A stretch of DNA of 64,000 nucleotides, from contig NZ_NQVN01000003.1 of assembly GCF_002770725.1 (NCBI RefSeq), positions 62,001-126,000 of the forward strand, written 5' to 3'. This document shows positions 1,187 through 34,783 of the stretch, piece after piece. Source of the stretch: Pleomorphomonas carboxyditropha. Lineage in GTDB: Bacteria > Pseudomonadota > Alphaproteobacteria > Rhizobiales > Pleomorphomonadaceae. The notes beneath the pieces are model-generated. The model ran no database searches, was not told the DNA's origin, and was given only the letters and a program-made list of their open reading frames with translations. Position 1 is the stretch's first letter; each line of letters opens with the position of its first letter. Position numbers and translations under genes: made by a program.

Positions 1187-1309
1187 GCTGACGGTCGTCA
1201 GCACCATGCCCTGGCAGCCCCGGTCCTCAAGGCTGCAACGCGGTTCGCCGCGTTGACCGATCCAGTCCGCTTCGCACCGACCACCGCGGACGCGCGTCGC
1301 CACGACGCG
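1187..1309 (+). promoter_or_regulatory. Repeated ICE leader element, copy 1
   Basis: This is one of five copies of a structured element. Hairpin 1 pairs 1187-1192 with 1197-1202 (GCTGAC/GTCAGC). Hairpin 2 pairs 1214-1219 with 1231-1236 (GCAGCC/GGCTGC) around a loop ending CCTCAA. Hairpin 3 pairs 1239-1243 with 1248-1252 around TTCG. Hairpin 4 pairs 1265-1270 with 1286-1291, and hairpin 5 pairs 1293-1299 with 1303-1309. The linker between hairpins 1 and 2 reads CATGCCCTGG here against CATGCCCAGG in the other copies. It lies 86 bases before the next start codon. Confidence 0.7.
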
Positions 1310-1394
1310 GGTGCTTTTCATGTTCAACCCTTCGGGAGGTATCCGCTCCCGTCAGGGCGTGGTGCTCCCGGTCTTCAACCAACAGGAGAAAACC

Positions 1395-1646
1395 ATGTCC
1401 CTTGCGCTCGCATCGGCACCTTTGAGTGCTGAACAGGCCCGAGCCGAATCCATCGGCTACCAGGCCCTGGCCTGCGTCGGCAAGCGCCTGCCCCTGCAAG
1501 TGCTGTGCAGCGCAGCCGGCCACTACATCGGCACCGCCGATGCGGACGGCCCGGTCTCGCGGGAGTCGGTCAGCTACTTCCGCTCGCACCACGCCGCCGA
1601 GCACGCCCTGCAAACGGGCCGCTGGCAGCAGCGCCTCCACCCGTGA
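1395..1646 (+). CDS. Small conserved ICE protein of unknown function
   Basis: The gene encodes 83 residues from an ATG that follows the Shine-Dalgarno sequence AGGAG (1385-1389). An upstream in-frame ATG at 1311 lies inside the leader and has no ribosome site. The protein is soluble, with no signal peptide, membrane segment or motif that I recognise. It sits first in the accessory cluster downstream of repeated leader element copy 1. Its position after topB suggests an ICE housekeeping or replication-associated role, but nothing in the sequence shows what it does. Confidence 0.6.
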   Translation: MSLALASAPLSAEQARAESIGYQALACVGKRLPLQVLCSAAGHYIGTADADGPVSRESVSYFRSHHAAEHALQTGRWQQRLHP

Positions 1647-1671
1647 TGTCCAACCACCAGGAGCCCATGTC

Positions 1672-2064
1672 ATGAACCGTGCCCTGCCTCAAGAGGTACT
1701 TGATCAGATCGAGCTGGAACACCAGCACTTCGCCGCCGCGCCCCAAGCCTTCTTCGAGGCGTGGAAACGCGGCGTCGACATCGCCGGAGCCGAATGGTTC
1801 GGCGACGGCACCCGCGAAGGCCTGCAGCGTGCCACCACCAAGTGGGATCTGCGGCCGAAGCTGCTGATGCTCAACGATGCCCTCGGCGTCCTGAGCAGCG
1901 GCCAGCGGATGTTCCTGTCCGCGATGGTGAGCTTCTACAACGCCCGCGAGGGCGGTGCGATGCTCAAGCGTTGCGGCTTCGAGGGTCTGTCCGACCTGGG
2001 CGGCCTCGACCTGGAACGGCGCAAGGTCGTCGCCGACCTGACGCTGAACTACAACGGCTGGTGA
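1672..2064 (+). CDS. Conserved ICE protein of unknown function
   Basis: The gene encodes 130 residues from an ATG with CAGGAG about ten bases upstream, 25 bases after the preceding stop, so the two genes are probably co-transcribed. The protein is mixed charged and mainly helical by eye, with a central stretch running GVLSSGQRMFLSAMVSFYNA. There is no signal peptide or membrane segment. I do not recognise a domain. A terminator-like hairpin follows at 2110-2153, which closes this small transcription unit. Confidence 0.65.
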   Translation: MNRALPQEVLDQIELEHQHFAAAPQAFFEAWKRGVDIAGAEWFGDGTREGLQRATTKWDLRPKLLMLNDALGVLSSGQRMFLSAMVSFYNAREGGAMLKRCGFEGLSDLGGLDLERRKVVADLTLNYNGW

Positions 2065-2109
2065 GCCGCGCTGCGGCCTGCCGACGTTCTTCTTTTCTTC
2101 CCACCCCAC

Positions 2110-2153
2110 GAGGGACATGCGTCCCTGCATGGGGCCATGTCCCTCCTTTTCTT
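2110..2153 (+). terminator. Hairpin with T-rich tail between ICE genes; alternative inner pairing
   Basis: Positions 2110-2119 pair perfectly with 2136-2145 (GAGGGACATG/CATGTCCCTC), followed by CTTTTCTT. Inside it, GGGAC at 2112 can instead pair with GTCCC at 2121-2125. The hairpin ends about ten bases before the Shine-Dalgarno sequence of the next gene. It could act as a terminator of the gene before, or as an attenuator of the gene after. Confidence 0.65.
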
Positions 2154-2167
2154 GAAAGGAGTGATTC

Positions 2168-2632
2168 ATGTCCCCTGACTTTTCCATCGGTCTGCTCGTG
2201 ACCGACGACGACATCGATGCGGTCATCCTTGAAGGCTGGCCGGCCGACGTGCGCAAGCCGCGCATCGTGGTGTTCGACTACGCCGGCAATGATGTGCCCG
2301 ACGAGTATGTGCTGCATGTCAGCAGCGGAACCCCGAATACCGGATTGACCGGGCGCGAGGTGTTCCCGGTCGAGTACGGACCCGACTGCCGCTACCCATC
2401 GCCCGCTGAAGTCCTTTCGGTGCTCGATGCACCTAAGCCGGCCGGAAAACCTTCCGCGCTGAGCATCGCCCGCAACGTGCACCAGAGCATCCTCAACCTG
2501 GATGCGCGGCTGGATCGCCTGGAGCAGGCGCCGACCGGCGACGACTACAACCGCCTGTACCAGCTTGCGAATGGCGGCCTGCTCGACCTGTTGAAGGCGC
2601 TGGGCGACCCGTCCTCTACCGCTGCCGGCTGA
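2168..2632 (+). CDS. Conserved ICE protein of unknown function
   Basis: The gene encodes 154 residues from an ATG preceded by AAAGGAG (2155-2161). The N-terminal half looks like a small alpha/beta domain. The C-terminal half (from about residue 98) contains a short coiled-coil-like stretch, NVHQSILNLDARLDRLEQ. There is no signal peptide and no catalytic motif that I can identify. It lies between two hairpin-containing leaders, so it may be transcribed largely on its own. Confidence 0.65.
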   Translation: MSPDFSIGLLVTDDDIDAVILEGWPADVRKPRIVVFDYAGNDVPDEYVLHVSSGTPNTGLTGREVFPVEYGPDCRYPSPAEVLSVLDAPKPAGKPSALSIARNVHQSILNLDARLDRLEQAPTGDDYNRLYQLANGGLLDLLKALGDPSSTAAG

Positions 2633-2712
2633 CCGGCTGCCACTTCATCCACCCGCTGGGGTTCAATCCCCAGCAGGGGATTGCCTCGGCCATCCCCTGC
2701 TGGAGAAATCCC

Positions 2713-3429
2713 ATGTCCTACTCGAACAACAATCCCTTTGTCCGCGGCTACGACGGCCTGTCCGTCCAGCGGCTGCTCGCCATCTCCTACGACGACGACT
2801 GCCCGCTGACCTACCTGCCGCTGCATCCTTCGCAGTCGAATCTGCCGGACAGCCAGGTCGAACGGCGGGCCTGCATCTTCTCGGACGACTTCGTGCTGAT
2901 CACCGAGGACCAGGTGGTCCCCAACGAGTTGCAGGCGCAATGCCGCAGCCACGGGCTCGCCCGCAACGTGGTCTATGCCGTGATGGCCGAGGAAGACGGC
3001 AAGCCACTGCACGTGGGCGACACTTACTCCGAAGAAGCGGCGCGGGAAGTCGTGCGGCGCCTGCGCTATGAAACCGGCTACTACAGCCGGTGCTGGGAAA
3101 TCAGCAGCGCGCACCTCGACGCCGACGCACACCGCTTCCTCGCCGAACTGGCGGACATCGCCACGCCGACGCTGTTCCTGTTCGTCGCCTTCCGCATCCC
3201 GTACGGCCCGGCCATCGGGTTGAAGCTGATCGCCACGCCCTGGACCGACGAGAACCTGCGCGCGGTCGAAGGCATCACGGCCAAGCGGCTGATGCAGGAG
3301 CATCGCAAGAAGGGCATGCCGGAATCCCTCATGCACGTGCTGCACCTGGCCGCGCTCGCCGACGTGCGCATGCTGGTCTTCGATGCCGATGCGCAGGTGC
3401 TGGACGGCCTGCCGATCTACGACGACTGA
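2713..3429 (+). CDS. Conserved ICE protein of unknown function (239 codons)
   Basis: The gene encodes 238 residues from an ATG at 2713 with GGAGA nearby. The protein is soluble and acidic. An aromatic-rich segment lies near residues 120-130 (YETGYYSRCWEISS) and the C-terminal third is leucine-rich and helical. Proteins of this size occur at this position in related ICEs under various DUF names, but I cannot assign one with confidence. A strong terminator at 3440-3470 follows the stop codon. Confidence 0.65.
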   Translation: MSYSNNNPFVRGYDGLSVQRLLAISYDDDCPLTYLPLHPSQSNLPDSQVERRACIFSDDFVLITEDQVVPNELQAQCRSHGLARNVVYAVMAEEDGKPLHVGDTYSEEAAREVVRRLRYETGYYSRCWEISSAHLDADAHRFLAELADIATPTLFLFVAFRIPYGPAIGLKLIATPWTDENLRAVEGITAKRLMQEHRKKGMPESLMHVLHLAALADVRMLVFDADAQVLDGLPIYDD

Positions 3430-3439
3430 CACCACCTTT

Positions 3440-3470
3440 CGAGCCCCCACGCGGGGCTCGTATTCTTTCT
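3440..3470 (+). terminator. Intrinsic terminator
   Basis: Positions 3440-3447 (CGAGCCCC) pair with 3453-3460 (GGGGCTCG), followed by TATTCTTTCT. It lies 11 bases after the stop codon of the upstream gene. Confidence 0.8.
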
Positions 3471-3547
3471 GGACGAAGCCGGTGGACGCGCAGTGCCGAT
3501 TCCCCCGCGTCGCTGGCCCACGCCTGACGCACGCTGCTCGCATGTTC

Positions 3548-3613
3548 GCTGGCGTTGCCGGCAAGCATGCCCAGGCAGTCGAGACCTTCGAGGCTGCGGC
3601 ACGGTTCGCCGTG
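3548..3613 (+). promoter_or_regulatory. Repeated ICE leader element, copy 2 (hairpins 1-3)
   Basis: Hairpin 1 pairs 3548-3553 with 3557-3562 (GCTGGC/GCCGGC). The linker reads CATGCCCAGG. Hairpin 2 pairs 3575-3580 with 3592-3597 (GCAGTC/GGCTGC, one G-T pair) with loop GACCTTCGA. Hairpin 3 pairs 3600-3604 with 3609-3613 (CACGG/CCGTG) around TTCG. Hairpins 4 and 5 are not clear in this copy. It lies upstream of the gene at 3722. Confidence 0.7.
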
Positions 3614-3663
3614 CTGGTTGCTATTCCTTCTCCGGGCGCATGTCGCGTCCATCCACCTCACCC

Positions 3664-3702
3664 CCAAGGGACACACCTCCCTTGCGGGCGGAAGTCCCTT
3701 GG
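3664..3702 (+). promoter_or_regulatory. Leader hairpin with two exclusive pairings
   Basis: Positions 3664-3672 (CCAAGGGAC) pair with 3694-3702 (GTCCCTTGG). An alternative inner hairpin pairs AAGGGA with TCCCTT at 3677-3682. The structure ends a few bases before the Shine-Dalgarno AAGGAG of the next gene, so it could affect translation or early termination. No T tract follows. Confidence 0.5.
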
Positions 3703-3721
3703 TTGCCACAAGGAGTCTTCC

Positions 3722-4519
3722 ATGGATACCCAAGCCATCCGCGCACAGATGCCGACGCTGGTTCGCGGCCACGTGCCTTCCAACGTCCGCAGCTTCAAGT
3801 TCAACATCTTCGACGGCCAGCCCAAGGTTTCGACGCTGGGCTTCCACGTTGATCCCAAGCCCTTCGAGGGCAAGGTCATCGCCACCACCGACGAGGCCAT
3901 CGTCGTCAAGACGGGGCGGGCCGAGTTCGCGGTGCTCGACAAGGCCCTCGTCACCGACGTGCCCGACGAAGGCGCCAAGGTGCAGGTCGAACCGTATGCG
4001 CGGCGCCGCTTCGACGGCTTGCGCGCGGATACGCCCGAGGAGAGCACTGAGTTCACCGCCGACGGCCAGCCGTACACGGTGAAGCGGCTCATCCTGGGTT
4101 CCGCGCCGGCCAAGCTGCCGATCCCCGAGCCGCAGTGCCCCGAGCTGCAGGAGCTGATCCACCAACTGGAGCAGTTGCCCGCGCCCGATGGATTCCGCCG
4201 CATCACGCACCTGCTGGTGGATGCCGGCGCGCGGGACTTCACGGTGGTCGATCCGAGCCCCAGCAACATCATCGCCACGCCGCCGGCCATCGGCTTCACC
4301 GTCGCTTCGGCGAAGTTCCAGGGGCGCGTCACCGTGCTCTACGAACGCGGCCTCGACACCTACGCGGTGGAGCTGCATCGCGAAGGCGAGCTGGTCGAGC
4401 GGGTCGATGAAGTGTTCTTCGACACCTTGGGCCAGGTGCTGGAGCGGCTGATCGACGACGGGAGCTGGCGCCTCATCCGCGTACAGCGCCTGTCCGGTCG
4501 CAAGCCCGTCCAGCACTGA
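3722..4519 (+). CDS. Conserved ICE protein of unknown function (265 residues)
   Basis: The ATG at 3722 is chosen because AAGGAG lies just upstream; in-frame starts further upstream fall inside the structured leader. The protein has 265 residues, no signal peptide and no membrane segment. It is rich in beta-type segments, with several turns of the form DGQP and ADGQP, and the C-terminal half (about 130-265) looks like a separate domain. I recognise no motif. It is preceded by repeated leader element copy 2. The following DUF3085 gene starts 75 bases downstream. Confidence 0.7.
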   Translation: MDTQAIRAQMPTLVRGHVPSNVRSFKFNIFDGQPKVSTLGFHVDPKPFEGKVIATTDEAIVVKTGRAEFAVLDKALVTDVPDEGAKVQVEPYARRRFDGLRADTPEESTEFTADGQPYTVKRLILGSAPAKLPIPEPQCPELQELIHQLEQLPAPDGFRRITHLLVDAGARDFTVVDPSPSNIIATPPAIGFTVASAKFQGRVTVLYERGLDTYAVELHREGELVERVDEVFFDTLGQVLERLIDDGSWRLIRVQRLSGRKPVQH

Positions 4520-4594
4520 TCCCCTCACGTCCCCAAGCGGCTTCCCGTCCTCGCGGCGGGAAACCTTCTTCCTTCACCGTTGGAGACCACTTCC

Positions 4595-4960
4595 ATGACT
4601 GTTCGATTCAAAGGCACCGAGCTTCGGCCCGTGCTTGCCGAGGCGGCGGCCAACCAGTGCCGCGTCATCCTGGTCAAGGACCAGGGCGTGTATTTCATGG
4701 CCGAGCACGGCGAGAGCCGGCCCGATGGGCGGCGCAAGACCATCGCCTACGCCGTGGGCTGCAACCCCGATGTCGATGCGTTCGACGACTGGTGGGAACT
4801 GGCGCGCGCCGAATTCGGCGGCGACGACTTCGGCGAGTTCTTCGCCCTGCAGGAACGGGTCCTCACCCGTATCCTGCACAGCGAGGACGACCTCGAAGTG
4901 TCGGCCACGGTCACGCACCTGTCGATGCAGGCGGTATCCGCTGCACCGGCCGGCCACTGA
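4595..4960 (+). CDS. DUF3085 family protein
   Basis: The 121-residue product matches the DUF3085 family by its opening MTVRFKGTELRPVL and the block CRVILVKDQGVYFMAEHGE followed by AYAVGCNP. The family is common on clc-type ICEs and plasmids, and its function is unknown. The ATG at 4595 is preferred over a TTG at 4580 because GGAG (4583-4586) is well spaced for it. A clean terminator follows at 4975-5000. The protein is soluble and acidic, with an alpha/beta pattern, and has no obvious catalytic residues. Confidence 0.8.
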   Translation: MTVRFKGTELRPVLAEAAANQCRVILVKDQGVYFMAEHGESRPDGRRKTIAYAVGCNPDVDAFDDWWELARAEFGGDDFGEFFALQERVLTRILHSEDDLEVSATVTHLSMQAVSAAPAGH

Positions 4961-4974
4961 CCGTACTGCTTCCC

Positions 4975-5000
4975 AGCCCCCTTCACGGGGGCTTCTCTTT
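4975..5000 (+). terminator. Intrinsic terminator after the DUF3085 gene
   Basis: AGCCCCC at 4975-4981 pairs with GGGGGCT around TTCAC, followed by TCTCTTT. It lies 15 bases after the stop codon. Confidence 0.85.
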
Positions 5001-5103
5001 ATCTCGTGCCGCGGCCCATGGCCGCATCGCACGCGCTCGTCTCCAGTCCGGCTCGGGCCGCTCACGCCGGCATCTGCCGGTGCCACCGCCTGGTGACGCC
5101 TGC

Positions 5104-5448
5104 ATGCGAGACCCGTTCAAGATCGAGCAACCGACCTGCATCAGCTTCAGCGGCGGCCGCACCAGCGCGTACATGCTCTGGCGCGTGCTGCAAGCCAACG
5201 GCGGCCTGCCCGCAGATGCCGTCGTCTGCTTCGCCAACACCGGAAAAGAAGTGGAAGCCACCTTGCGCTTCGTGCGCGACTGCGCCGAGCACTGGCAAGT
5301 GCCGATCCACTGGCTGGAGTACCGGCCCATCGAACCGGGCTTCGTGGTGGTGGACTTCGATACCGCCAGCCGCGCGGGCGAGCCCTTCGAGATGCTGGTC
5401 CGCAAGCGGCAGTACCTGCCCAACCCGGTGGCGAGAGGGTGCCACTAA
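5104..5448 (+). pseudogene. PAPS reductase-like protein, truncated after the N-terminal half
   Basis: The 114 residues match the N-terminal half of phage- and ICE-type phosphoadenosine phosphosulfate reductase-like proteins (adenine nucleotide alpha hydrolase fold). The PP-loop SGGRTS is at residues 16-21, followed by VVCFANTGKE. Family members normally run well past 200 residues. Here the conserved segment LPNPVAR is followed at once by GCH and a stop. The sequence after that point belongs to the leader region of the next gene, with copy 3 of the repeated element starting at 5520. The missing C-terminal half makes catalytic function unlikely. A functional short form cannot be excluded. Confidence 0.7.
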
Positions 5449-5519
5449 TGCGGACAGCCGCCGGTGCCGATTGCCGCTCGCGCGGGCGCGCGCCTGGCGC
5501 CACGCTGCCGCCATGTTCC

Positions 5520-5645
5520 GCTGACGCCCGTCAGCAGCATGCCCAGGCAGTCTCGATCTTCAAGACTGCGACGCGGTTCCGACCGCGTTGATCAACCAGT
5601 TCGCTCCGGCATCCCAGCGCGAACAGCCATCGGTTCTCCCGATGG
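5520..5645 (+). promoter_or_regulatory. Repeated ICE leader element, copy 3
   Basis: This is the most regular copy. Hairpin 1 pairs 5520-5525 with 5530-5535 (GCTGAC/GTCAGC). The linker is CATGCCCAGG. Hairpin 2 pairs 5547-5552 with 5564-5569 (GCAGTC/GACTGC) around a loop with GATCTTCAA. Hairpin 3 pairs 5572-5577 with 5582-5587 (CGCGGT/ACCGCG). Hairpin 4 pairs 5599-5604 with 5619-5624 (GTTCGC/GCGAAC). Hairpin 5 pairs 5627-5633 with 5639-5645 (CCATCGG/CCGATGG). It lies 102 bases before the STY4534/DUF3577 start codon. Confidence 0.75.
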
Positions 5646-5746
5646 TGATGCCACCCAAGCTGTTCCTTCAACCCACGCGGGGGTTCCACACCTTCCCCGC
5701 CTTGGGTCGGGTGTGTCTCCGCCTCATTGTTCTCAGGAGATTCACC

Positions 5747-6310
5747 ATGACCACTTCCACCGACAAGTCCTACTTCGACCTGCACATCACCGGACTCGGG
5801 TATCTCAATCGCATCCGCGAAGTGAAGCCCAAGAAAGGCGATGCGTTCCTGGCCTGCGACATCGCGGCGCTCAACGGCCCCAGCGATGACGTGGCCTACG
5901 TGCGTTTCGACACGCGCGTCTCGGGCTCCGAAGCGCAGCACCTCGTGCGCCGCTGCATCCAAGCGGTCGATGCCGAGAAGAAAGTGATGATCGGCTTCCG
6001 TCTGGGCGACCTGTGGGCCGACACCTTCACCTACTCCAAGGGCAAGCGTGCCGGCGAGCAGGGGGTGAGCTTCAAGGCCCGCCTGCTGTTCGTCAGTTGG
6101 ATCAAGGTCGACGGCAAGCTCGTCTACAAGGCCGAGCCCAAGCCGACCGATGCCGACCAGCGCGACGAACGCGACGTGCGTAACACGGATGTCCCCGCGA
6201 CGTTCGCTGAGCCGCAAGCCGCTGCGTTCGAGCCCGCCAGGCCCGCCGCCGAAGCTGCCGACGAAGCCACTGCCGATGCGCCTGCATTGGAAGTTGCCGA
6301 GTCGTTCTGA
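5747..6310 (+). CDS. STY4534 (DUF3577) family ICE replication-associated protein
   Basis: The 187-residue protein matches the STY4534/DUF3577 family. Its N-terminal block YFDLHITGLGYLNRIREVKPKKGDAF resembles an OB-fold single-strand-binding core, and residues after about 135 form an acidic, alanine-rich tail. The family is annotated as ICE replication proteins in clc/PFGI-1 elements, probably binding single-stranded DNA; that role is inferred. The ATG at 5747 follows CAGGAGA; an upstream in-frame start lies in the leader. It is preceded by repeated element copy 3 and followed by a terminator at 6317. Confidence 0.85.
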   Translation: MTTSTDKSYFDLHITGLGYLNRIREVKPKKGDAFLACDIAALNGPSDDVAYVRFDTRVSGSEAQHLVRRCIQAVDAEKKVMIGFRLGDLWADTFTYSKGKRAGEQGVSFKARLLFVSWIKVDGKLVYKAEPKPTDADQRDERDVRNTDVPATFAEPQAAAFEPARPAAEAADEATADAPALEVAESF

Positions 6311-6316
6311 TCCGCA

Positions 6317-6355
6317 AGGCCCCGACTCTGAATTGAGTCCGGGGCTTTGTCTTCT
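6317..6355 (+). terminator. Intrinsic terminator
   Basis: GCCCCGACTC at 6319-6328 pairs with GAGTC-C-GGGGC at 6335-6345 (one bulged C), followed by TTTGTCTTCT. It lies just after the DUF3577 stop codon. Confidence 0.8.
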
Positions 6356-6430
6356 CCCACTCGCGTGCGCATGCGACCGTCGCCATGACGGCCGTGTGCG
6401 TGATCGCAGCTTCGTCCGCAGGAGTTCTTC

Positions 6431-7060
6431 ATGATCACCATTCCCGGCCAATTGGCCATCAAGACCATCCACGGCCGTAACGGCGACTTCAACGTCGGGC
6501 GCCTTGCGACCTCCATCGGCGAGTTCGTCGTGAAGAACGCCGAACTCGACCAGTACGCCGAAGGCAAGTACGAGGGCGATTTCGCCATCGCGGAGATTCG
6601 CCCGTCCACGTACACCGCCAACGGCCGCATGGTCATTGAGATCCGCGCCCTCCTGGGTGGGATGACTTTGTCCAACATCGACGCCCTGAGCCGTGACGAC
6701 GCCCGCCGGCTGAGTCCGCAGGAAGTCGATCCGATCGACGAGGAAGCGCAGACCGCCACGCCGACGCCGACGACCGCCCCCAAGGCGGCCGGCCGGAAGA
6801 AGGCGCGCAGCTCGCGCGACCCGCTGGTCGATACCACGCCGTTCGGCAGCGAGCCGGCTGCTGCGTCTGCCGAGGCTACGGCCCATGCGGACGACGACGG
6901 CGACGCGGCGCTGTTCGGCACACTCTGGCCGCTGGGCGATGTCGTCAAGCTCGATGCCACCGTGGATCGGCGCGTGCTGCGTCAGCAGCGCGACCGCCTC
7001 GGCGACCTGGGCTACGAGTTCGCTCCGCTGTCCCAGGACTGGCACCTCACCAGGGTCTGA
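6431..7060 (+). CDS. DUF3275 family protein
   Basis: The 209-residue product matches DUF3275, a core unknown of PFGI-1/clc ICEs. The N-terminal 100 residues (MITIPGQLAIKTIHGRNGDF, later YEGDFAIAEIRPSTY) form a conserved beta-rich domain. A low-complexity linker of T, P, A and K follows (about 105-130). A C-terminal segment, residues 150-209, includes LFGTLWPLGDVVKLDATVDR. Its ATG follows GCAGGAG. The function is unknown; its constant position next to the DUF3577 gene suggests a shared job in ICE replication or maintenance. Confidence 0.83.
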   Translation: MITIPGQLAIKTIHGRNGDFNVGRLATSIGEFVVKNAELDQYAEGKYEGDFAIAEIRPSTYTANGRMVIEIRALLGGMTLSNIDALSRDDARRLSPQEVDPIDEEAQTATPTPTTAPKAAGRKKARSSRDPLVDTTPFGSEPAAASAEATAHADDDGDAALFGTLWPLGDVVKLDATVDRRVLRQQRDRLGDLGYEFAPLSQDWHLTRV

Positions 7061-7102
7061 TCCCATCGCCATTTCACGCCGCATGCCTGCGGCTTTCCAC
7101 CA

Positions 7103-7128
7103 CCCGCCGGGGCTCCTTCCCCGGCGGG
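7103..7128 (+). promoter_or_regulatory. Strong leader hairpin before the gene at 7162
   Basis: Positions 7103-7112 (CCCGCCGGGG) pair with 7119-7128 over 10 bp around CTCCTT. No T tract follows. It stands between the DUF3275 stop codon and the next Shine-Dalgarno region, like the leader hairpins at 3664 and 11210. Confidence 0.5.
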
Positions 7129-7161
7129 AGGACTCCGGCCCTTTCTCACAGGAGTCATTCC

Positions 7162-7554
7162 ATGGGCTGGACATTCGTTCGATTGACGCGCGATCAGTTG
7201 ATCCGCGAGCTGACCGCAACCGAGGAAACCGAGCGGTCGCGCAGTGAGGTCATCGACCACACGCTGGTCGGCAACGTGCTGTGGACGGTGGCGCGCGTCA
7301 CCGCCAAGCAGGCCGGCGTCCTGGGTCTCGCACCCGGCGAGTCGGCCACCTTGATCGGCTGCCATCTGCTGGAAAGCGAGGGCCGCGAATGGGGCTACAA
7401 GTTCCTGGTCGAGGCCGAGCACCCGTACTACTACTCGTGCCCGCTGCGCTATCTCGACATGGCGCCGCAGCGCTGCGCCACCTGGCGCGCAAGGGTGCAT
7501 GCCTTCCACCAGCAGCCGACGCGCAAAGCGGCCGGCGATGCAGCCACCGACTGA
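7162..7554 (+). CDS. Conserved ICE protein of unknown function (130 residues)
   Basis: The ATG at 7162 follows CAGGAGTC. The 130-residue protein has an N-terminal region with many charged helices (MGWTFVRLTRDQLIRELTATEETERS) and a middle beta-rich part containing HPYYYSCPLRYLDM. No signal peptide or membrane segment is visible. It lies seven bases upstream of the next gene, so the two are probably co-translated. I do not recognise the family. Confidence 0.65.
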   Translation: MGWTFVRLTRDQLIRELTATEETERSRSEVIDHTLVGNVLWTVARVTAKQAGVLGLAPGESATLIGCHLLESEGREWGYKFLVEAEHPYYYSCPLRYLDMAPQRCATWRARVHAFHQQPTRKAAGDAATD

Positions 7555-7561
7555 GGCGAAC

Positions 7562-7831
7562 ATGGACACCCTCATGTCGTCCTTGCCGCCCGAGCTGCTT
7601 CGCTTCGTCGAAGACCAGTTGGCCAACAACGAGGTTTCCGACGACGACGAACTGCGCGAGCACTTCATCGCCAACGGCCTGAGCGAAGAACAGGCGTGGC
7701 AGGCACTGACCTACCGCGCGCTGTACCTGCGACACGTCTTTCTCGACGGCTTCACGCCGATCCTCAAAGGCCAGGAAGCGCTTTGCTTCAACCCGCACAG
7801 CCGCGGCTGGGAGCCGGTTCCGAACCCATAG
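7562..7831 (+). CDS. Small acidic ICE protein of unknown function
   Basis: The gene encodes 89 residues from an ATG seven bases after the previous stop. The protein is acidic and helical (LLRFVEDQLANNEVSDDDELREHFI, then SEEQAWQALTYRALYLRHVF) and ends in NPHSRGWEPVPNP. There is no transmembrane segment. A terminator at 7872 ends this two-gene unit. It could be a partner of the protein encoded just upstream, but nothing in the sequence proves this. Confidence 0.65.
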   Translation: MDTLMSSLPPELLRFVEDQLANNEVSDDDELREHFIANGLSEEQAWQALTYRALYLRHVFLDGFTPILKGQEALCFNPHSRGWEPVPNP

Positions 7832-7871
7832 GCCGGCCTTCACGCGGCGCACTTCTTCATCCCTTTCATCA

Positions 7872-7898
7872 GGCCCTGTTCAGCAGGGCTTTTCTTCG
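7872..7898 (+). terminator. Intrinsic terminator
   Basis: GCCCTG at 7873-7878 pairs with CAGGGC at 7884-7889, followed by TTTTCTTCG. Confidence 0.8.
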
Positions 7899-7968
7899 TC
7901 CTACGCAATCGCACGCATCCGGCCTCGGCCGCTGGATGCCGATTGCTCCATTCCGCAAGGAGATCATC

Positions 7969-8796
7969 ATGCAACTCGCATCTCGCTTCGCCCCTCGTTC
8001 CCCGGTGCTGCGCGCCGACCATCCGTTGTCGGACGATCAGATTCGCACCGTGGCCCCATCCATCTTCGCGGACACCCCGCACGAAAGCCGCTCCGAACGG
8101 TACAGTTACATCCCCACGGCGGCTGTGCTGACCGAACTGCGCAGAGAAGGTTTCCAGCCGTTCATGGTGTGCCAGACCCGCGTGCGACACGAGGATCGCC
8201 GCGACTACACCAAGCACATGCTGCGCCTTCGCCACGCCAGCCAGATCAACGGCGCCGAGGCGAACGAGATCATCCTGCTCAACTCGCACGACGGCACCAG
8301 CAGCTACCAGATGCTCGCGGGCATGTTCAGATTCGTCTGCCACAACGGCCTGGTGTGCGGCGACACCTTCGCCGACGTGCGCGTGCCCCACAAGGGCAAC
8401 GTCACCGATCACGTGATCGAAGGCGCCTACGAGGTGCTGCACGGCTTCGAGCGCGTGCAGGACTCGCGCGACGCCATGCGCGTCATCACCCTCGACGACG
8501 GCGAGGCCGAAGTCTTCGCCAGGTCGGCGCTGACCTTGAAGTACGACGAGTCGGGCAAGGCCTTGCCCATCACGGAGACGCAGATCCTGCGGCCTCGTCG
8601 TTTCGACGACAACCGTGCCGATCTTTGGTCGGTCTTCAACCGGGTTCAGGAGAACCTGGTCAAGGGCGGCCTGACTGGCCGTGCCGCCAACGGGCGCCAG
8701 CAGCGCACGCGACCCGTTCAGGGCATCGACCAGAACGTCCGGCTCAACCGGGCGCTTTGGCTGCTCGCGGATGGCCTGCGTCAGCTCAAAGCCTGA
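7969..8796 (+). CDS. DUF932 (DUF945) domain protein
   Basis: The 275-residue protein matches the DUF932 family found on ICEs, plasmids and phages. Conserved stretches are LLNSHDGTSSYQMLAGMFRFVCHNGLVCG near residues 105-130 and the following HVIEGAYEVL. The ATG at 7969 has AAGGAG just upstream (7957-7962), which decides the start. It is a cytoplasmic protein with no membrane segment. The molecular function of the family is not established. It has its own terminator (8803-8840), so it appears to be a single-gene unit. Confidence 0.85.
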   Translation: MQLASRFAPRSPVLRADHPLSDDQIRTVAPSIFADTPHESRSERYSYIPTAAVLTELRREGFQPFMVCQTRVRHEDRRDYTKHMLRLRHASQINGAEANEIILLNSHDGTSSYQMLAGMFRFVCHNGLVCGDTFADVRVPHKGNVTDHVIEGAYEVLHGFERVQDSRDAMRVITLDDGEAEVFARSALTLKYDESGKALPITETQILRPRRFDDNRADLWSVFNRVQENLVKGGLTGRAANGRQQRTRPVQGIDQNVRLNRALWLLADGLRQLKA

Positions 8797-8802
8797 CCCA
8801 CA

Positions 8803-8840
8803 AGCGGATCGTGCCTCGCGGCATGGTCCGCTTTTTCTTT
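8803..8840 (+). terminator. Intrinsic terminator of the DUF932 gene
   Basis: AGCGGA at 8803-8808 pairs with TCCGCT at 8827-8832, with an inner TGCC/GGCA stem, followed by TTTTCTTT. Confidence 0.85.
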
Positions 8841-8849
8841 GGCGGCGCT

Positions 8850-9012
8850 GTGCTGCCAGCGCACCACGTTCAGTTTGGTTCGGTGTAACCCTAATGCGGC
8901 AATTCGCTGCCGCCGCGAAAATTGCGGTTCGACTGCATACCTCCCTGGCTTTTCCTCCCTGAGCCAAGCAGTCATCTTTGCCGCCTCGGTGTTCCCGGGG
9001 CGGTTTTCTTTT
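8850..9012 (+). ncRNA. Candidate small RNA ending in its own terminator
   Basis: This stretch lies between the DUF932 terminator and a second, separate terminator (8981-9012: CCGCC pairs with GGCGG, with an inner CGG/CCG, then TTTTCTTTT). It holds no gene. A hairpin at 8896-8913 pairs GCGGCA with TGCCGC. A free-standing terminator with no gene before it suggests a short transcript that starts after 8840. I could not identify a convincing promoter, so the 5' end given is approximate. Confidence 0.35.
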
Positions 9013-9125
9013 ATGGCCGTCCTTCCAGGCCGCGGGCGATGCGCCAGCGCAAACAGGGTTGGACGCTGGGTCGGTTTTCCGCTCCCGCTGTAGGCGCACC
9101 TTGGCGCAGGCTATGTCCCATGTCC

Positions 9126-9255
9126 GTCGGCGTTGCCGACAACATGCCCAGGTAGTCCAGACCTTCAAGGCTACGGTGCGTTGCGACGCACGGTCTGATT
9201 CTTCACCACGACGCTCACCGCGTCTTCTTCCATCCCCCTGGGGCAGTGACTGCCC
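9126..9255 (+). promoter_or_regulatory. Repeated ICE leader element, copy 4
   Basis: Hairpin 1 pairs 9126-9131 with 9135-9140 (GTCGGC/GCCGAC). The linker is CATGCCCAGG. Hairpin 2 pairs 9152-9157 with 9169-9174 (GTAGTC/GGCTAC) around a loop with GACCTTCAA. Hairpin 3 pairs 9176-9181 with 9186-9191 (GTGCGT/ACGCAC). Further hairpins at 9210-9224 (GACGC/GCGTC) and 9241-9255 (GGGCAG/CTGCCC) take the place of hairpins 4 and 5. It ends 42 bases before the next start codon. Confidence 0.7.
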
Positions 9256-9296
9256 TCGCGGTTGGTGCTGTCTCCGCTCACTTCGAGGACATCACC

Positions 9297-9953
9297 ATGC
9301 CTGCACCTTCTTCCCCCAAGACGCTCTATCGCATCGACGAATGCCCCGACCTGATGGCCGATGGCGTCGTCGGTGACGAGAACGGCAACCTGGTCTTCAT
9401 CTCCCTCTGGGCGCGCGACACCGCCGTCCAGGAATTCCTGGCCCGCCTCACCCTGGGCCGGGACGAACAGGGACTGGATCAGTTCCACGTCATCACCGAG
9501 CAGGGCGCCAGCATCCCGGTCTTCGTCGGCAACGTCGAGAACCTGGAGAAACGCAGCGCACGCGCCTACCGGCGCACGCTGTTCGGCTCGCTGACCAACA
9601 TCTGGCTGTTCGATCGGCGCTGCGTCAAACCCGACAAGGCCAACGCCAGCGCACTGGCGCTCCTGCCTCGCGATTCCACGCACCGGCTCGACCGGCTGTG
9701 GACGCTGGTGCGGGACACGTGCCCGCTGCCGCTTCTCGATCCCTGGCGCGACAGCGTACTGGAACTGCTGCAGGCGAAGTCGATGCTGACGCGCCTGCCG
9801 TTCGCCCTCGGGCCTCTGGAAGGCCATCGGCTCGCCATCGACGTGCCGACGCTGACCGAGGTGCTGGGCGGCCTGATCCGCAGCGGCGCGCTCGTCGGCG
9901 GCGCACCCGCCAGCCGCACCCCCTCGGCGCAACCGCTCGAAGCGGTGGCTTGA
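9297..9953 (+). CDS. Conserved ICE protein of unknown function (218 residues)
   Basis: The ATG at 9297 follows GAGGACATC. The 218-residue protein is soluble. It carries an SLWARDTAVQEFLARLTLG helix and a segment FGSLTNIWLFDRRCVKPDKANA, with a proline/alanine-rich C-terminus. No catalytic motif is recognisable. It is preceded by repeated leader element copy 4 and followed after 67 bases by the DUF6094 gene. Confidence 0.65.
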   Translation: MPAPSSPKTLYRIDECPDLMADGVVGDENGNLVFISLWARDTAVQEFLARLTLGRDEQGLDQFHVITEQGASIPVFVGNVENLEKRSARAYRRTLFGSLTNIWLFDRRCVKPDKANASALALLPRDSTHRLDRLWTLVRDTCPLPLLDPWRDSVLELLQAKSMLTRLPFALGPLEGHRLAIDVPTLTEVLGGLIRSGALVGGAPASRTPSAQPLEAVA

Positions 9954-10020
9954 GGTTCCTTCACCGGACATGCACGCGCGCATGTCCGCATCCCTTCATC
10001 TTCAATGCCAGGAGATTCCC

Positions 10021-11136: not shown

Positions 11137-11209
11137 TCGCTGTTCCCTGACGGTCGCCGTCGATCTGTTCTTCCACTGCGGCTTCGCGCCGTTCTTCTCT
11201 TCCCACCCC

Positions 11210-11257
11210 GGGGCATGCCATCGCCCCGCAGGGGGAGGTGCATGCCCCATCTTCTTT
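11210..11257 (+). promoter_or_regulatory. Leader hairpin or attenuator before the helicase gene
   Basis: Positions 11210-11218 (GGGGCATGC) pair with 11240-11248 (GCATGCCCC), followed by ATCTTCTTT. An inner alternative pairs GGGGC with GCCCC at 11222-11226 or so. It ends just before the TTGGAG ribosome site. It may terminate upstream transcription or attenuate the helicase gene. Confidence 0.55.
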
Positions 11258-11268
11258 GGAGCATCACC

Positions 11269-13551: not shown

Positions 13552-13562
13552 TCCACCCACCC

Positions 13563-21645: not shown

Positions 21646-21650
21646 GTGCC

Positions 21651-26726: not shown

Positions 26727-26747
26727 CCCCATGAAAGGTACTTCGCC

Positions 26748-27125: not shown

Positions 27126-27137
27126 GGCCCGGCAACG

Positions 27138-30631: not shown

Positions 30632-31046
30632 ATCGGCCGCGATCCTGTGCGCGGTCCTGGTGCTGGGCGGCTGCGCCACCAGCAAGGACAAGTTGCTGCC
30701 GCACGGCGATCACACCATGCTCGACGTGTGGAATCAGGAGACGGGCGGCAGCGCCGGTGGTGGGCAGGCAGCGCGGCAACTGCTCGATGCACGCCAGGAC
30801 TTGCGCCGGCCGCTGACCGAGGCCGACGTGCAGGCGGTGCCCGCCGCCGCTGCCGCCTACACGCGCACCGCGGCCAACGAGATTTACCGCCAGTTCCGAC
30901 GCCTGCCGAACCCGGACCTAGTGATGTACGTGTTCCCGCACCTGGCCGGCACCGACCCGGTGCCCGTGCCCGGCTACACCACCGTGTTCCCGCTCTACCA
31001 GCGCGTGCAGTACGCGATGCCTGGCGAGCGCCTGGAGGACTACTGA
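30612..31046 (+). CDS. TIGR03751 conjugative transfer lipoprotein (TraV-like place)
   Basis: The 144-residue precursor has a lipobox LGGC (cysteine 21) and matches the TIGR03751 family, with MYVFPHLAGTDPVPVPGYTT. Outer-membrane lipoproteins in this place correspond to TraV/VirB7. It overlaps the upstream gene by 20 bases and its stop overlaps the start of the ATPase gene. Confidence 0.87.
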   Translation: MRRIWIESAAILCAVLVLGGCATSKDKLLPHGDHTMLDVWNQETGGSAGGGQAARQLLDARQDLRRPLTEADVQAVPAAAAAYTRTAANEIYRQFRRLPNPDLVMYVFPHLAGTDPVPVPGYTTVFPLYQRVQYAMPGERLEDY

Positions 31047-33928
31047 TGGCTTGGTCGTTGCCCTGGGCACGCAAGGCCGTCACGCCCGCCGGCCCCGACC
31101 TGGATGCCGATGACGCCTGGTCGCAGCATGTCTCGACGCTGGCCGCGCACGGCATTCCCGAGCCCGGCAGCGCGATGGGCAGCCAGCCGCGCCCGCCGAC
31201 CACCGAAGCGGACCTGCAGGCGCTCTACGGCGTGGCACCGTCCTTCGCCGACCTGTTGCCGTGGATGGAGTACCTGCCCGGCTCCAAGAGCATGTTGCTG
31301 GAAGACGGCCAGTCGGTTGCGGGCTTCTTCGAACTGGCCCCGGTCGGCACCGAAGGCCGTGAGATGGCCTGGCTGTGGCAGGCACGCGATGCACTGGAGA
31401 ACGCGCTGCAGGACTCGTTCGACGAACTCGACGAGAACCCGTGGGTCGTGCAGCTCTACGCCCAGGACGAATCGACCTGGGACACCTACCTGCGCGGGCT
31501 GGCCGACTATGTGCGGCCGCGCGCCCAGGGCAGCGCCTTCACGGACTTCTACCTGCGTTTCTTTGGGCACCACCTGCGCGCCATTGCCAAGCCCGGCGGG
31601 CTGTTCGAGGACACCACGGTGACGCGGCTGCCGTGGCGCGGCCAGGTCCGGCGCGTGCGAATGGTGGTCTACCGGCGCGCGAACGCTACGACCGCATCGC
31701 GGCGCGGCCAGTCCCCCGAGCAGGCGTTGACGACGATCTGCGACCGGCTCGTGGGCGGCCTCGCCAACGCGGGCGTGAAATCCCGCCGCATGGAGGCGGC
31801 CGACATCCACGACTGGCTGCTGCGCTGGTTCAACCCGCACCCGACGCTGCTCGGCCCCAGCGCCGACGACCGCGAGCGCTTCTATGCGCTCACGCGCTAC
31901 CCCGAGGCAGTCGAAGACGGCGAGATCGAGCTGGCTAGCGGAGACTTCGCGCAGCGCCTGTTCTTCGGCCAGCCGCGCTCGGACGTGGCGAACGGCACGT
32001 GGCTGCTCGACGGCATGCCGCACCGGATCATCGTGATGGACCGGTTGCGCATGCCGCCTGCGACCGGCCACGTCACCGGCGAAACGCGCAAGGGCGGCGA
32101 TGCCGTCAACGCGCTGTTCGACCAGATGCCCGAGGACACGGTGATGTGCCTGACCGTCGTCGCGACGCCGCAGGACGTGCTCGAAGGGCACCTGAACCAC
32201 CTGAGCAAGAAGTCGGTCGGCGAGACGCTGGCTTCGGAGCAGACGCGCCGCGACGTGCAGGAAGCGCGCGGGCTGATCGGCAGCGCGCACAAGCTCTACC
32301 GCGGTGCGCTTGCCTTCTATCTGCGCGGACGCGACCTCGCGCAGCTCGACGCCCGCGGCCTGCAACTGGTCAACGTCATGCTCAACGCCGGCCTGCAGCC
32401 GGTGCGCGAGGAAGACGAGGTGGCGCCGCTCAACAGCTACCTGCGCTGGCTCCCGTGCGTGTTCGATCCGGCCACCGACAAGCGCCAGTGGTACACGCAA
32501 CTGATGTTCGCGCAGCACGCGGCGAACCTCGCGCCGGTGTGGGGCCGCAGCCAGGGCACCGGCAATCCGGGCATCACGTTCTTCAACCGCGGCGGCGGGC
32601 CGATCACCTTCGACCCGCTGAACCGGCTCGACCGGCAGATGAACGCTCACCTGTTCCTGTTCGGTCCCACCGGCTCGGGCAAAAGCGCCACGCTCAACAA
32701 CATCCTGAACCAGGTGACGGCGATCTACCGGCCGCGGCTGTTCATCGTCGAGGCGGGCAACAGCTTCGGCCTGTTCGGCGACTTCGCGGCGCGGCTAGGC
32801 ATGAAGGTGCATCGCGTTAAGCTGGCCCCCGGTGCCGGGGTGAGCCTCGCGCCGTTCGCCGACGCCCACCGGCTGGTGGAAACGCCCAGCCAGGTGCAGA
32901 CGCTGGATGCCGACGCCCTGGACGAGGACCGCGACGAAGCGGCACAGGCAGCGGATGCCGACGAGCAGCGTGACGTGCTGGGGGAACTGGAAATCACCGC
33001 GCGGCTGATGATCACCGGCGGCGAGGACAAGGAAGAGGCGCGCATGACGCGCGCCGACCGCAGCCTGATCCGCCAGTGCATCCTCGATGCGGCCCAGCGT
33101 TGCGTGGCCAACCAGCGCACCGTCCTGACGCGCGACGTGCGCGATGCGCTGCGCGAGCGCGGCCGCGATACGGCACTACCCGAGGTGCGGCGCGCGCGGC
33201 TGCTGGAAATGGCCGACGCGATGGATATGTTCTGCCAGGGCGTGGACGGCGAGATGTTCGACCGGCCCGGCACGCCCTGGCCCGAGGCCGACATCACCAT
33301 CGTCGATCTGGCGACCTTCGCACGCGAGGGCTACAACGCGCAGCTTTCCATCGCCTACATCAGCCTTATCAACACGGTCAACAACATCGCCGAGCGCGAC
33401 CAGTTCCTCGGCCGGCCGATCATCAACGTGACGGACGAGGGGCACATCATCACCAAGAACCCGCTGCTTGCGCCCTACGTCGTCAAGATCACGAAGATGT
33501 GGCGCAAGCTCGGCGCCTGGTACTGGCTGGCGACGCAGAACATCGACGACCTGCCCAAGGCCGCCGAGCCCATGCTCAACATGATCGAGTGGTGGATCTG
33601 CCTCTCGATGCCGCCCGACGAGGTGGAGAAGATCGCGCGCTTTCGCGAGCTGAACGCGGCGCAGAAGGCGCTGATGCTGTCGGCCCGCAAGGAGGCCGGC
33701 AAGTTCAGCGAGGGCGTGATCCTTTCCAAGAGCATGGAAGTGCTATTCCGCGCGGTGCCGCCCAGCCTGTACCTGGCGCTGGCTCAGACCGAGCCGGAAG
33801 AGAAGGCCGAGCGTTTCCAGTTGATGCAGCAGTACGGCATCGGCGAACTGGACGCCGCTTTCAAGATCGCCGAGAAGATCGACCGCGCCCGCAGCATCGA
33901 GCCGCTGGTGCTCGATGCGCTGGCGTGA
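31046..33928 (+). CDS. traC: TraC/VirB4-like conjugation ATPase (TIGR03744)
   Basis: The 960-residue protein matches the PFL_4706/TIGR03744 ATPases. Walker A is FGPTGSGKS near residue 540, and a Walker B-like segment INVTDEGH lies near 791. It powers assembly of the pilus and secretion channel at the inner membrane. The start ATG overlaps the stop of the lipoprotein gene (TGATG). A longer upstream frame exists but runs through the lipoprotein gene in another frame and is rejected. Confidence 0.92.
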   Translation: MAWSLPWARKAVTPAGPDLDADDAWSQHVSTLAAHGIPEPGSAMGSQPRPPTTEADLQALYGVAPSFADLLPWMEYLPGSKSMLLEDGQSVAGFFELAPVGTEGREMAWLWQARDALENALQDSFDELDENPWVVQLYAQDESTWDTYLRGLADYVRPRAQGSAFTDFYLRFFGHHLRAIAKPGGLFEDTTVTRLPWRGQVRRVRMVVYRRANATTASRRGQSPEQALTTICDRLVGGLANAGVKSRRMEAADIHDWLLRWFNPHPTLLGPSADDRERFYALTRYPEAVEDGEIELASGDFAQRLFFGQPRSDVANGTWLLDGMPHRIIVMDRLRMPPATGHVTGETRKGGDAVNALFDQMPEDTVMCLTVVATPQDVLEGHLNHLSKKSVGETLASEQTRRDVQEARGLIGSAHKLYRGALAFYLRGRDLAQLDARGLQLVNVMLNAGLQPVREEDEVAPLNSYLRWLPCVFDPATDKRQWYTQLMFAQHAANLAPVWGRSQGTGNPGITFFNRGGGPITFDPLNRLDRQMNAHLFLFGPTGSGKSATLNNILNQVTAIYRPRLFIVEAGNSFGLFGDFAARLGMKVHRVKLAPGAGVSLAPFADAHRLVETPSQVQTLDADALDEDRDEAAQAADADEQRDVLGELEITARLMITGGEDKEEARMTRADRSLIRQCILDAAQRCVANQRTVLTRDVRDALRERGRDTALPEVRRARLLEMADAMDMFCQGVDGEMFDRPGTPWPEADITIVDLATFAREGYNAQLSIAYISLINTVNNIAERDQFLGRPIINVTDEGHIITKNPLLAPYVVKITKMWRKLGAWYWLATQNIDDLPKAAEPMLNMIEWWICLSMPPDEVEKIARFRELNAAQKALMLSARKEAGKFSEGVILSKSMEVLFRAVPPSLYLALAQTEPEEKAERFQLMQQYGIGELDAAFKIAEKIDRARSIEPLVLDALA

Positions 33929-33941
33929 CGGGGAGTCCACG

Positions 33942-34688
33942 ATGCGCATCCCTCGCTTCGCGCCGTCCCGCACCGTCCTTGTCGTCGCGCTGCTGATGGC
34001 CGCGGCCCTGACAACGGCCGCATGGCTCGGCCTGCGGCCGCAGTCGCCGCCCGCCGAACCCGATTTTCCTTCGGCAGAAGCAACGCCTGCGCCGGCAACG
34101 GCACCAGCCGGCCCGCCCTGGCGCTATGGCCGCGCCGATGCGCGCTTCACGGTGGTCGAGTACGCCGACCTCGAATGCCCGTTCTGCCGCGCCTACTTCG
34201 CAGTGCTCAAGCGCTGGATCGACGCGCACCCGGACGTGAGCTGGCAATGGCATCACCTGCCGTTGCCGTTGCACGAGCCGGCCGCGTCTGCCGGTGCGCG
34301 CCTGGTGGAGTGCGTCGGCGAGGCCGGCGGCCAGGCCGCGTTCTGGCAGGCCGCCGAGTGGGTCTACACGCACACCCGCGGCGACGGTCAGGGCCTGCCC
34401 GAGGGCCTGCGCTATCCCGACCTCACGCCGGCCGCGCAGCAGTGCCTCGACAGCGACCGCCCCGATGCGCTGATCCGCGCACAGTCGGCGAGCGCGGCGC
34501 AGGAGGGCATCAAGGTCACGCCCACGCTGCGCCTGCAGGATCGCCAGTCCGGCAAGACGCTGCTGCTGCACGGCCCGGTCGAAGGAGATGCCTTGCTGTC
34601 CGCGATCGACCTGCTGGCGGCCAGTGCAGCGGCCGAGCCCGCATCGAAGGAAATGCCTGCCGAGTCTCTCGGAGACATGCCCAGGTAG
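33942..34688 (+). CDS. DsbG/DsbA-like thioredoxin-fold protein of the transfer region
   Basis: The 248-residue protein has an N-terminal membrane/signal segment (residues 12-30), a linker, and a thioredoxin fold with CPFC at 79-82 and the cis-proline segment KVTPTLRL near 196. It is likely a periplasmic disulfide isomerase or oxidase for the many cysteine-containing Tra proteins. The last codons (SLGDMPR) are encoded by the start of repeated leader element copy 5, so the element has supplied the end of the protein. Confidence 0.85.
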   Translation: MRIPRFAPSRTVLVVALLMAAALTTAAWLGLRPQSPPAEPDFPSAEATPAPATAPAGPPWRYGRADARFTVVEYADLECPFCRAYFAVLKRWIDAHPDVSWQWHHLPLPLHEPAASAGARLVECVGEAGGQAAFWQAAEWVYTHTRGDGQGLPEGLRYPDLTPAAQQCLDSDRPDALIRAQSASAAQEGIKVTPTLRLQDRQSGKTLLLHGPVEGDALLSAIDLLAASAAAEPASKEMPAESLGDMPR

Positions 34689-34783
34689 CCACGATCTTCA
34701 AGGCTACGACGCGGCTTGGCCGTGCTGATCGACCCCGTTCGCTGCGCATCCCTGGACGCGAACAGCCACTGTGCATGCGGTGG
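34660..34783 (+). promoter_or_regulatory. Repeated ICE leader element, copy 5
   Basis: Hairpin 1 pairs 34660-34664 with 34668-34672 (CCGAG/CTCGG). The linker is CATGCCCAGG. Hairpin 2 pairs 34685-34690 with 34702-34707 (GTAGCC/GGCTAC) around GATCTTCAA. Hairpin 3 pairs 34710-34715 with 34719-34724. Hairpin 4 pairs 34737-34742 with 34758-34763 (GTTCGC/GCGAAC). Hairpin 5 pairs 34766-34771 with 34778-34783. It begins inside the DsbG-like gene and lies upstream of radC. Confidence 0.73.

Follow-up and report, generated by a model that had tools for sequence, protein, structure and literature searches.

The window studied here, a 64,000-nucleotide stretch of Pleomorphomonas carboxyditropha DNA (contig NZ_NQVN01000003.1, positions 62,001 to 126,000), contains an ICE in which similar structured elements recur before scattered genes. 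This raises the question what these elements are and whether they connect the genes at the level of DNA or of RNA. The five structured elements that an earlier note had described from the sequence are real: all five (5/5) match the Rfam family RF01754, radC RNA, on the plus strand with 88.6-126 bits (cmscan, gathering cut-off 40; E 3e-15 to 1e-23), covering model positions 1-149. The Rfam check that the note had set thus leads to a known family, so the element is not new, and the window elements are radC RNAs, cis-acting leader RNAs of ICE core genes. Their place had been given correctly and their extent had not, as the Rfam matches start 17-18 bases earlier and end 5-78 bases later (Table 1). 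As claimed, the copies contain the linker CATGCCCAGG (in copy 1 CATGCCCTGG) and, in hairpin 2, a loop of the GA(C/T)CTTCAA type; both are near-invariant among the elements. The placement before start codons holds as well, with 41-108 bases between the element ends as first drawn and the starts of the five downstream genes.

Table 1. Positions of the radC RNA copies, their parts, the downstream genes and nearby signals in the 64,000-nucleotide window (H, hairpin; PK, pseudoknot)
Feature	Position	Strand	Source or remark
radC RNA copy 1, before 83-aa gene	1169..1314	+	Rfam, 120.7 bits
Copy 1 H1; linker; H2; H3	1187-1202; 1205-1214; 1214-1219/1231-1236; 1237-1243/1248-1254	+	read from sequence
Copy 1 PK1 (CGGTC/GACCG)	1221-1225/1255-1259	+	loop-pairing test
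Copy 1 PK2 helix a (GTCCGC/GCGGAC); helix b (GCACC/GGTGC)	1265-1270/1286-1291; 1274-1278/1310-1314	+	interlocking-helix test
Copy 1 H4; TTTT	1293-1309; 1315-1318	+	
83-aa gene, downstream of copy 1	1395..1646	+	
Terminator-like hairpin upstream of copy 2	3440..3460	+	
Promoter-like block TGCCGATT upstream of copy 2	3494..3501	+	
radC RNA copy 2, before 265-aa gene	3531..3691	+	Rfam, 93.5 bits; type without sign of PK2
Copy 2 H1; linker; H2; H3	3548-3562; 3566-3575; 3575-3580/3592-3597; 3598-3604/3609-3615	+	
Copy 2 PK1 (GACC/GGTT)	3583-3586/3616-3619	+	one G-U pair
265-aa gene, downstream of copy 2	3722..4519	+	
Promoter-like block TGCCGATT upstream of copy 3	5465..5472	+	
radC RNA copy 3, before STY4534/DUF3577 gene	5502..5651	+	Rfam, 126 bits
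Copy 3 H1; linker; H2; H3	5520-5535; 5538-5547; 5547-5552/5564-5569; 5570-5576/5583-5589	+	
Copy 3 PK1 (GATC/GATC)	5555-5558/5590-5593	+	
Copy 3 PK2 helix a (GTTCGC/GCGAAC); helix b (GGCATC/GATGCC)	5599-5604/5619-5624; 5608-5613/5647-5652	+	
STY4534 family ICE replication protein (DUF3577), downstream of copy 3	5747..6310	+	homologue of ICEclc ORF81655
Terminator-like hairpin upstream of copy 4	8980..9004	+	
radC RNA copy 4, before 218-aa gene	9109..9262	+	Rfam, 88.6 bits; type without sign of PK2
Copy 4 H1; linker; PK1 (CAGACC/GGTCTG)	9126-9140; 9143-9152; 9158-9163/9192-9197	+	
218-aa gene, downstream of copy 4	9297..9953	+	
radC RNA copy 5, before radC, among conjugation genes	34642..34790	+	Rfam, 111 bits
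Copy 5 H1; linker; H2	34660-34672; 34676-34685; 34685-34690/34702-34707	+	
Stop codon of upstream reading frame (33915-34688)	34686..34688	+	inside 5' strand of copy 5 hairpin 2
Copy 5 PK1 (CGATC/GATCG)	34692-34696/34727-34731	+	
Copy 5 PK2 helix a; helix b (GCATCC/GGATGC)	34737-34742/34758-34763; 34746-34751/34785-34790	+	
RadC-like JAB protein, downstream of copy 5	34882..35376	+	homologue of ICEclc ORF58432

The family was described by Weinberg et al. in 2010, where the accessible table row for radC reads 'Y y ?' (PMC2864571). The literature searched, mostly outside subscription papers and supplements, yielded no assigned function for radC RNA, nor any paper on it besides that one and CaCoFold (PMC7657543). 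The last column of that row presumably stands for riboswitch. A whole-genome search found only the five window copies and none elsewhere. Among 40 relatives, own genome counted, three carry the RNA (2 above cut-off), and two class-wide samples gave 2/385 and 2/369 genomes, with the centre genome counted in each. The genus of Achromobacter xylosoxidans B_1 is richer, with 15 of 43 genomes (13 above cut-off) and up to 20 matches within a single genome. The 14 control genomes had 0 matches, and E. coli genomes searched with copy 3 and its flank gave none. This sporadic distribution is as expected for a mobile element.

Two segments of the window, 1-11385 and 32703-36703, are 100% identical in DNA (11,385 and 4,001 bases) to one genome of the Achromobacter set (G819; loci L100 and L101), which points to very recent transfer between classes, unless one of the assemblies is contaminated. 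A tRNA-Gly (CCC) gene (46819-46892, minus strand) adjoins the gene of a 618-aa tyrosine integrase (44724-46580, minus strand), and together they probably mark one end of the ICE. The window also holds a SAM_alpha riboswitch (49774-49853) upstream of a Cys/Met metabolism PLP enzyme (49914-51104).

For comparison across genomes a covariance model in which hairpins 1-3 are the only paired parts was built from 29 elements. It gave 130 matches in 63 sources, of which ten weak ones (28 bits in L007 and nine at 17.6-17.8 bits) were dropped to leave 120 elements, 71 of them distinct; the covariation test of hairpins 1-3 retained these ten and had 74 distinct rows. In this wide alignment 97.8% of the cells are paired and 17/19 pairs changed on both sides, which bears out the claim that stem sequences differ while pairing is kept. 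None of 500 shuffles was as good (0/500), in an alignment that is fitted to these three hairpins. The shuffle controls leave relatedness in, so that distinct pair types weigh more than shuffle counts. Nested folding energy compared with shuffles gave z = -0.68, -2.33, -4.28, -1.94 and +0.10 for copies 1-5, unremarkable for copies 1 and 5. Since this energy does not beat the shuffles in every copy, it is covariation that carries the case.

Comparison of the sequences also demonstrates a predicted pseudoknot, PK1, in which the loop of hairpin 2 would pair with the strand after hairpin 3, so that H2, H3 and PK1 would form a compact knot. It is present with a helix of at least 4 pairs in 69 of the 71 distinct elements. 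When the first 9 loop bases were compared with the 12 bases after H3, PK1 not being part of the model, the mean score was 13.18 against 9.44 (sd 0.35) with partners permuted (0/2000), although in a few rows another helix scored above the PK1 register. A MAFFT alignment made without fitting to PK1 has 97.4% of the PK1 cells paired and 2/4 pairs changed on both sides; hairpin 1 is out of register in most rows of this alignment (48.9% paired), which was corrected for the model. The pairing strands vary together as GATC/GATC, CGGTC/GACCG, CAGACC/GGTCTG and GGGTT/AACCC.

A second predicted pseudoknot, PK2, is likewise demonstrated at this level in four gene classes, namely before 83-aa/ORF89247-type genes, the DUF3577 gene, radC and one further gene. 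Its helices a and b would interlock, with hairpin H4 between strands a' and b'. Window copies 1, 3 and 5 carry it, and of the two more hairpins that had been assigned to these copies one is indeed a hairpin and the other is this pseudoknot. Interlocking helices were found in 57/57 distinct elements of the four classes, with a mean score of 32.91 against 29.90 (sd 0.48) permuted (0/2000); in a few rows (e.g. L102:11411, L120:19999) the best helix pair is not the usual one. A separate automatic search for helices a and b, which is not counted as evidence here, chose other helices in several rows and none in two. In a MAFFT alignment of 21 sequences 97.0% of the PK2 cells pair, the covariation score is 0.410 against 0.159 shuffled (0/500), and 10/18 pairs change on both sides, which was equalled by 1/500 shuffles. 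This alignment omits 17 of 38 rows, mainly class 0, in which MAFFT misplaced b' or the 3' end differs, and helix b in these rows is covered by the permutation test only. Helix a pairs in 228/228 cells of 38 sequences, with 2/6 pairs changed on both sides; its variants are GTTCGC/GCGAAC, GTCCGC/GCGGAC and GCTCGC/GCGAGC, with GACCGC/GCGGTC in Pseudomonas. Those of helix b are GCATCC/GGATGC, GGCATC/GATGCC and GCACC/GGTGC, with GCTTCC/GGAAGC in Pseudomonas. Read by eye, nine Pseudomonas/Stutzerimonas plasmid elements, which lie outside the training set and were detected by both our model and Rfam, can form PK1 as well as PK2. No PK2 signal was seen in 16 elements of the classes that precede the 265-aa and 218-aa genes (copies 2 and 4), their own score being 20.66 against 20.95 permuted, with 1198/2000 permutations as high. 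The 3-pair closing helix of Rfam, as read from its structure line, has 90.5% of its cells paired in the same alignment, with 0 pairs changed on both sides and a score equal to that of the shuffles.

The earlier note had left open whether the element is a cis-regulatory RNA or a binding site. In the model-fitted alignment, which favours G-U somewhat, G-U cells outnumber A-C cells by 57 to 8 if the lowest pair of hairpin 3 is set aside (92 G-U cells when that pair is counted); the counts are 15 against 4 in the PK2 MAFFT alignment and 5 against 2 for PK1. This excess indicates a sense-strand RNA. Together with covariation and position before genes, it makes a cis-acting RNA well supported and disfavours a plain DNA site. 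The reading frame before copy 5 extends into the element, with its stop codon in hairpin 2, and this overlap makes a promoter role unlikely for copy 5.

A gene on the same strand, defined as an ATG reading frame with a Shine-Dalgarno-like site 20-300 bases downstream, follows 5/5 elements in the window and 119/120 overall (duplicates included), in classes of 32, 27, 25, 24, 5, 5 and 1. The 83-aa, 265-aa and 218-aa proteins have no Pfam or NCBIfam match. Single-sequence AlphaFold models were poor (pLDDT 42.0 for the DUF3577 protein, 48.5 for the 83-aa protein), and the DUF3577 (STY4534) profile found nothing convincing among solved structures (best E 0.12). Eight STY4534 loci were taken from the matches listed, and Rfam detects radC RNA in three of them (L128-L130) and not at those of Klebsiella, Comamonas aquatica, Burkholderia glumae, Escherichia coli and Shewanella, so members of that gene family need not have the RNA. 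Our own model gave sub-threshold matches, which were not counted, of 13.9 bits just before the Klebsiella gene and 25.1 bits in Comamonas on the opposite strand. Class-5 leaders (e.g. L106, L102, L120) precede a sixth gene class of 475-480 aa where complete, and the N terminus of this protein looks like that of a GHKL-type ATPase.

Upstream of the leaders, CCG(A/T)TT or CCCATT occurs within 75 bases in 14/21, 14/18 and 12/14 distinct leaders of classes 0, 1 and 2, where letter shuffles predict 1.2, 0.5 and 0.7, and in 1/17 of the radC class, 0/3 of class 4 and 1/4 of class 5. The distance from the block to the first CATG is 45-46 bases in 25/40 leaders and 34 bases in 11/40; in the class-1 cases inspected at 34 the first CATG lies 11 bases before the CATG of hairpin 1, which makes the true distance 45 once more. 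The conserved form in classes 0-2 is TGCCG(A/T)TT at a near-fixed distance, often preceded by an AAnnGGG-like block. The block might tentatively be read as a sigma-28-like -10 element. A TTGACA/GATGAT match runs up to the element start in two Pseudomonas-type leaders, and the scans for such promoters gave no clear excess, with 2 found in each against 2.7 and 1.7 expected by shuffles. Hairpin-like stretches with C-rich and G-rich arms lie before ribosome-binding sites (2100-2160, 2640-2710, 3655-3720, 5660-5745, 7080-7155). They precede several ICE genes with or without radC RNA, and are possibly a second leader motif.

The elements can be mapped onto ICEclc, which according to the text consulted is carried by LB400 (PMC6050381). 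LB400 gene stops fit 17/21 published ICEclc ORF names at one offset and 4/21 at another, which places five radC RNAs before ORF89247, ORF88400, ORF84835, ORF81655 and ORF58432 (radC). In the accessible text of Sulser et al. 2022 (PMC9286271), the regions of ORF88400, ORF81655 and ORF58432 show bimodal transfer-competence reporter activity, the ORF58432 promoter being weak or not independent, whereas those of ORF89247 and ORF84835 show an RNA-seq increase without reporter activity. Its authors consider that the silent fragments may lack a complete promoter or be too short, and mention processing of the transcript as a possible reason for the coverage seen ahead of ORF84835 and ORF89247. Upstream of ORF81655 the RNA-seq coverage is the highest of all while the reporter is only Pint-like, which the same text takes as a hint of post-transcriptional control. 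A 2010 study (PMC2892462), as far as its text was available, puts the ORF81655 start about 250 bases before the start codon on a very weak signal with data not shown; in ICEclc of LB400 the Rfam match begins 235 bases before that codon. The proposal of one regulon is thus only partly supported: three of the five ICEclc copies lie at regions with bimodal promoter activity and a 27-bp motif (one of them weak or not an independent promoter), two have neither according to the same source (PMC9286271), and the gene before the radC copy extends into that copy. A link between the ICE genes at the RNA level is possible.

The mechanism we consider likeliest, while stopping a little short of calling it probable, is a leader that controls termination after initiation. 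The radC RNA would arise at the 5' end of an ICE transcript or close to it, or else between two conjugation-operon genes, would act once transcription is under way, and would set the frequency with which the transcript is extended into the gene. As long as PK2 is folded, strand b' would be held and the polymerase would continue; with PK2 open, b' would join a terminator-like hairpin, and a protein, metabolite or ribosome signal would shift the balance between the two. This is our first choice because of the T tracts of class-0 leaders, the mutually exclusive hairpin of ORF89247-type leaders and the coincidence with silent ICEclc regions. At least 5 T occur within 9 bases after b' in 16/20 distinct class-0 leaders. 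Before ORF89247-type genes a competing terminator-like hairpin is seen outright: GGGCATCGATGCC is kept in 5/5 distinct leaders, and its hairpin excludes helix b and H4. Terminator-like sites occur in three of the five ICEclc leaders (ORF89247, ORF84835 and ORF88400), and the first two belong to the silent reporter regions in the available text (PMC9286271). Against this, the ORF88400 leader has a T tract and yet its region is described there as active. At least 5 T after b' occur in only 1/16 radC-class, 9/16 DUF3577-class and 1/4 class-5 leaders, and no T tract directly follows b' in the nine Pseudomonas/Stutzerimonas leaders or in window copies 3 and 5. A long T run is found in 1/5 ORF89247-type leaders, the others having at most 4 T in a row. 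The competing hairpins are also weak, at -4.7 to -6.9 kcal/mol, compared with -6.2 to -7.5 for H4 plus -8.2 for helix b. A broader proposal, which we regard as unlikely as it stands, is that in ICEclc/PAPI-1-like elements the tandem-pseudoknot leaders would form an element-wide RNA checkpoint that gates core operons after initiation, below the BisDC promoters, and helps to restrict transfer to few cells. The Pseudomonas elements with radC RNA are taken here to be PAPI-1-like.

A serious though unlikely alternative is that the leader is bound by a protein which thereby controls, for several ICE genes, either translation or the lifetime of the mRNA. This protein could be an ICE-encoded protein that regulates its own mRNA, with the near-invariant linker and loop as the contact, much as T4 gp32 regulates its own mRNA on a pseudoknot. 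That several genes of one element share the RNA would fit, as would the high ORF81655 coverage over a Pint-like reporter and the post-transcriptional hint in the text available (PMC9286271). No candidate protein was identified, the STY4534 profile and the single-sequence model (pLDDT 42.0) offering none. CsrA was rejected as the binding factor, with no Pfam match in the window's genome, LB400 or two Achromobacter-set genomes; across the six genomes checked two have a match (G301, G687) and four have none (G000, G040, G819, G809). As a separate observation, csrA is annotated in two related plasmid ICEs (L120 37794-37991, L121 35702-35875).

The knots might instead be stabilisers or processing sites that protect or define 5' ends within polycistronic ICE transcripts. 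The overlap of copy 5 with the preceding gene would suit this, and so would the processing invoked for ORF84835 and ORF89247 in the accessible text (PMC9286271). The promoter-like block within 75 bases upstream is common in three gene classes, however, so that many leaders may be primary 5' ends, and we judge this role rather unlikely. The compact double pseudoknot with conserved unpaired bases, and the 'Y y ?' row as available (PMC2864571), would suit a metabolite-sensing riboswitch. This appears improbable, as three of the five window genes lack a named family (the other two being DUF3577 and RadC) and no common pathway is apparent. Little probability attaches either to an antiterminator at ICE operon starts that would modify the polymerase for the whole operon, by a likeness to put RNA that we assume: the leader position and the terminator-like hairpins in downstream intergenic regions (e.g. 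window 4975-4993 and 7871-7891) agree with it, but at least one downstream gene has its own promoter-like block (window 7938) and the radC copy lies among conjugation genes, not at their start. That the element is a site bound as DNA or part of a promoter, like the 27-bp ICEclc motif, is highly improbable even though the regions of three of the five ICEclc copies are described as carrying that motif, since stem sequences vary while pairing is kept, G-U is in excess, and the motif is reported absent, in the text available, at ORF89247 and ORF84835 (PMC9286271).

The revised fold is open to exact tests by compensatory mutations. The radC RNA is a family for which no function had been found since 2010, within the literature searched, and the ICEclc mapping connects it with an element whose activation has been studied in depth. 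Should the leaders gate expression, the promoter regulon published so far would be only part of the way in which these widespread elements control transfer.

Compared with known systems, the elements agree with RF01754 in an end-to-end match far over the cut-off, in the cis-regulatory Rfam type and in one copy before radC. The family is already known, and PK1 and PK2 appear to go beyond its printed Rfam line. The nested structure line of cmscan draws neither pseudoknot, although such lines may omit pseudoknots and Rfam may hold more; the strands of its 3-pair helix would be explained by PK2, with covariation. The present analysis also sets out which gene classes follow the RNA and how many copies an ICE carries. 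CaCoFold (PMC7657543) places radC among families with covariation-supported pairs missing from database structures; the passage seen does not name the pairs, and PK1 and PK2 may overlap its result. The 27-bp motif is common to eight ICEclc promoters in the accessible text (PMC9286271). Motif discovery in seven ICEclc upstream regions, meant to recover it, gave weak motifs only. By that paper's own region list, as available, the motif-bearing regions of ORF88400, ORF81655 and ORF58432 also have radC RNA, while the motif is reported absent from the other tested regions, including RNA-bearing ORF89247 and ORF84835 (PMC9286271). On this list of regions identity of the two is rejected, and the motif is not the same element as the radC RNA.
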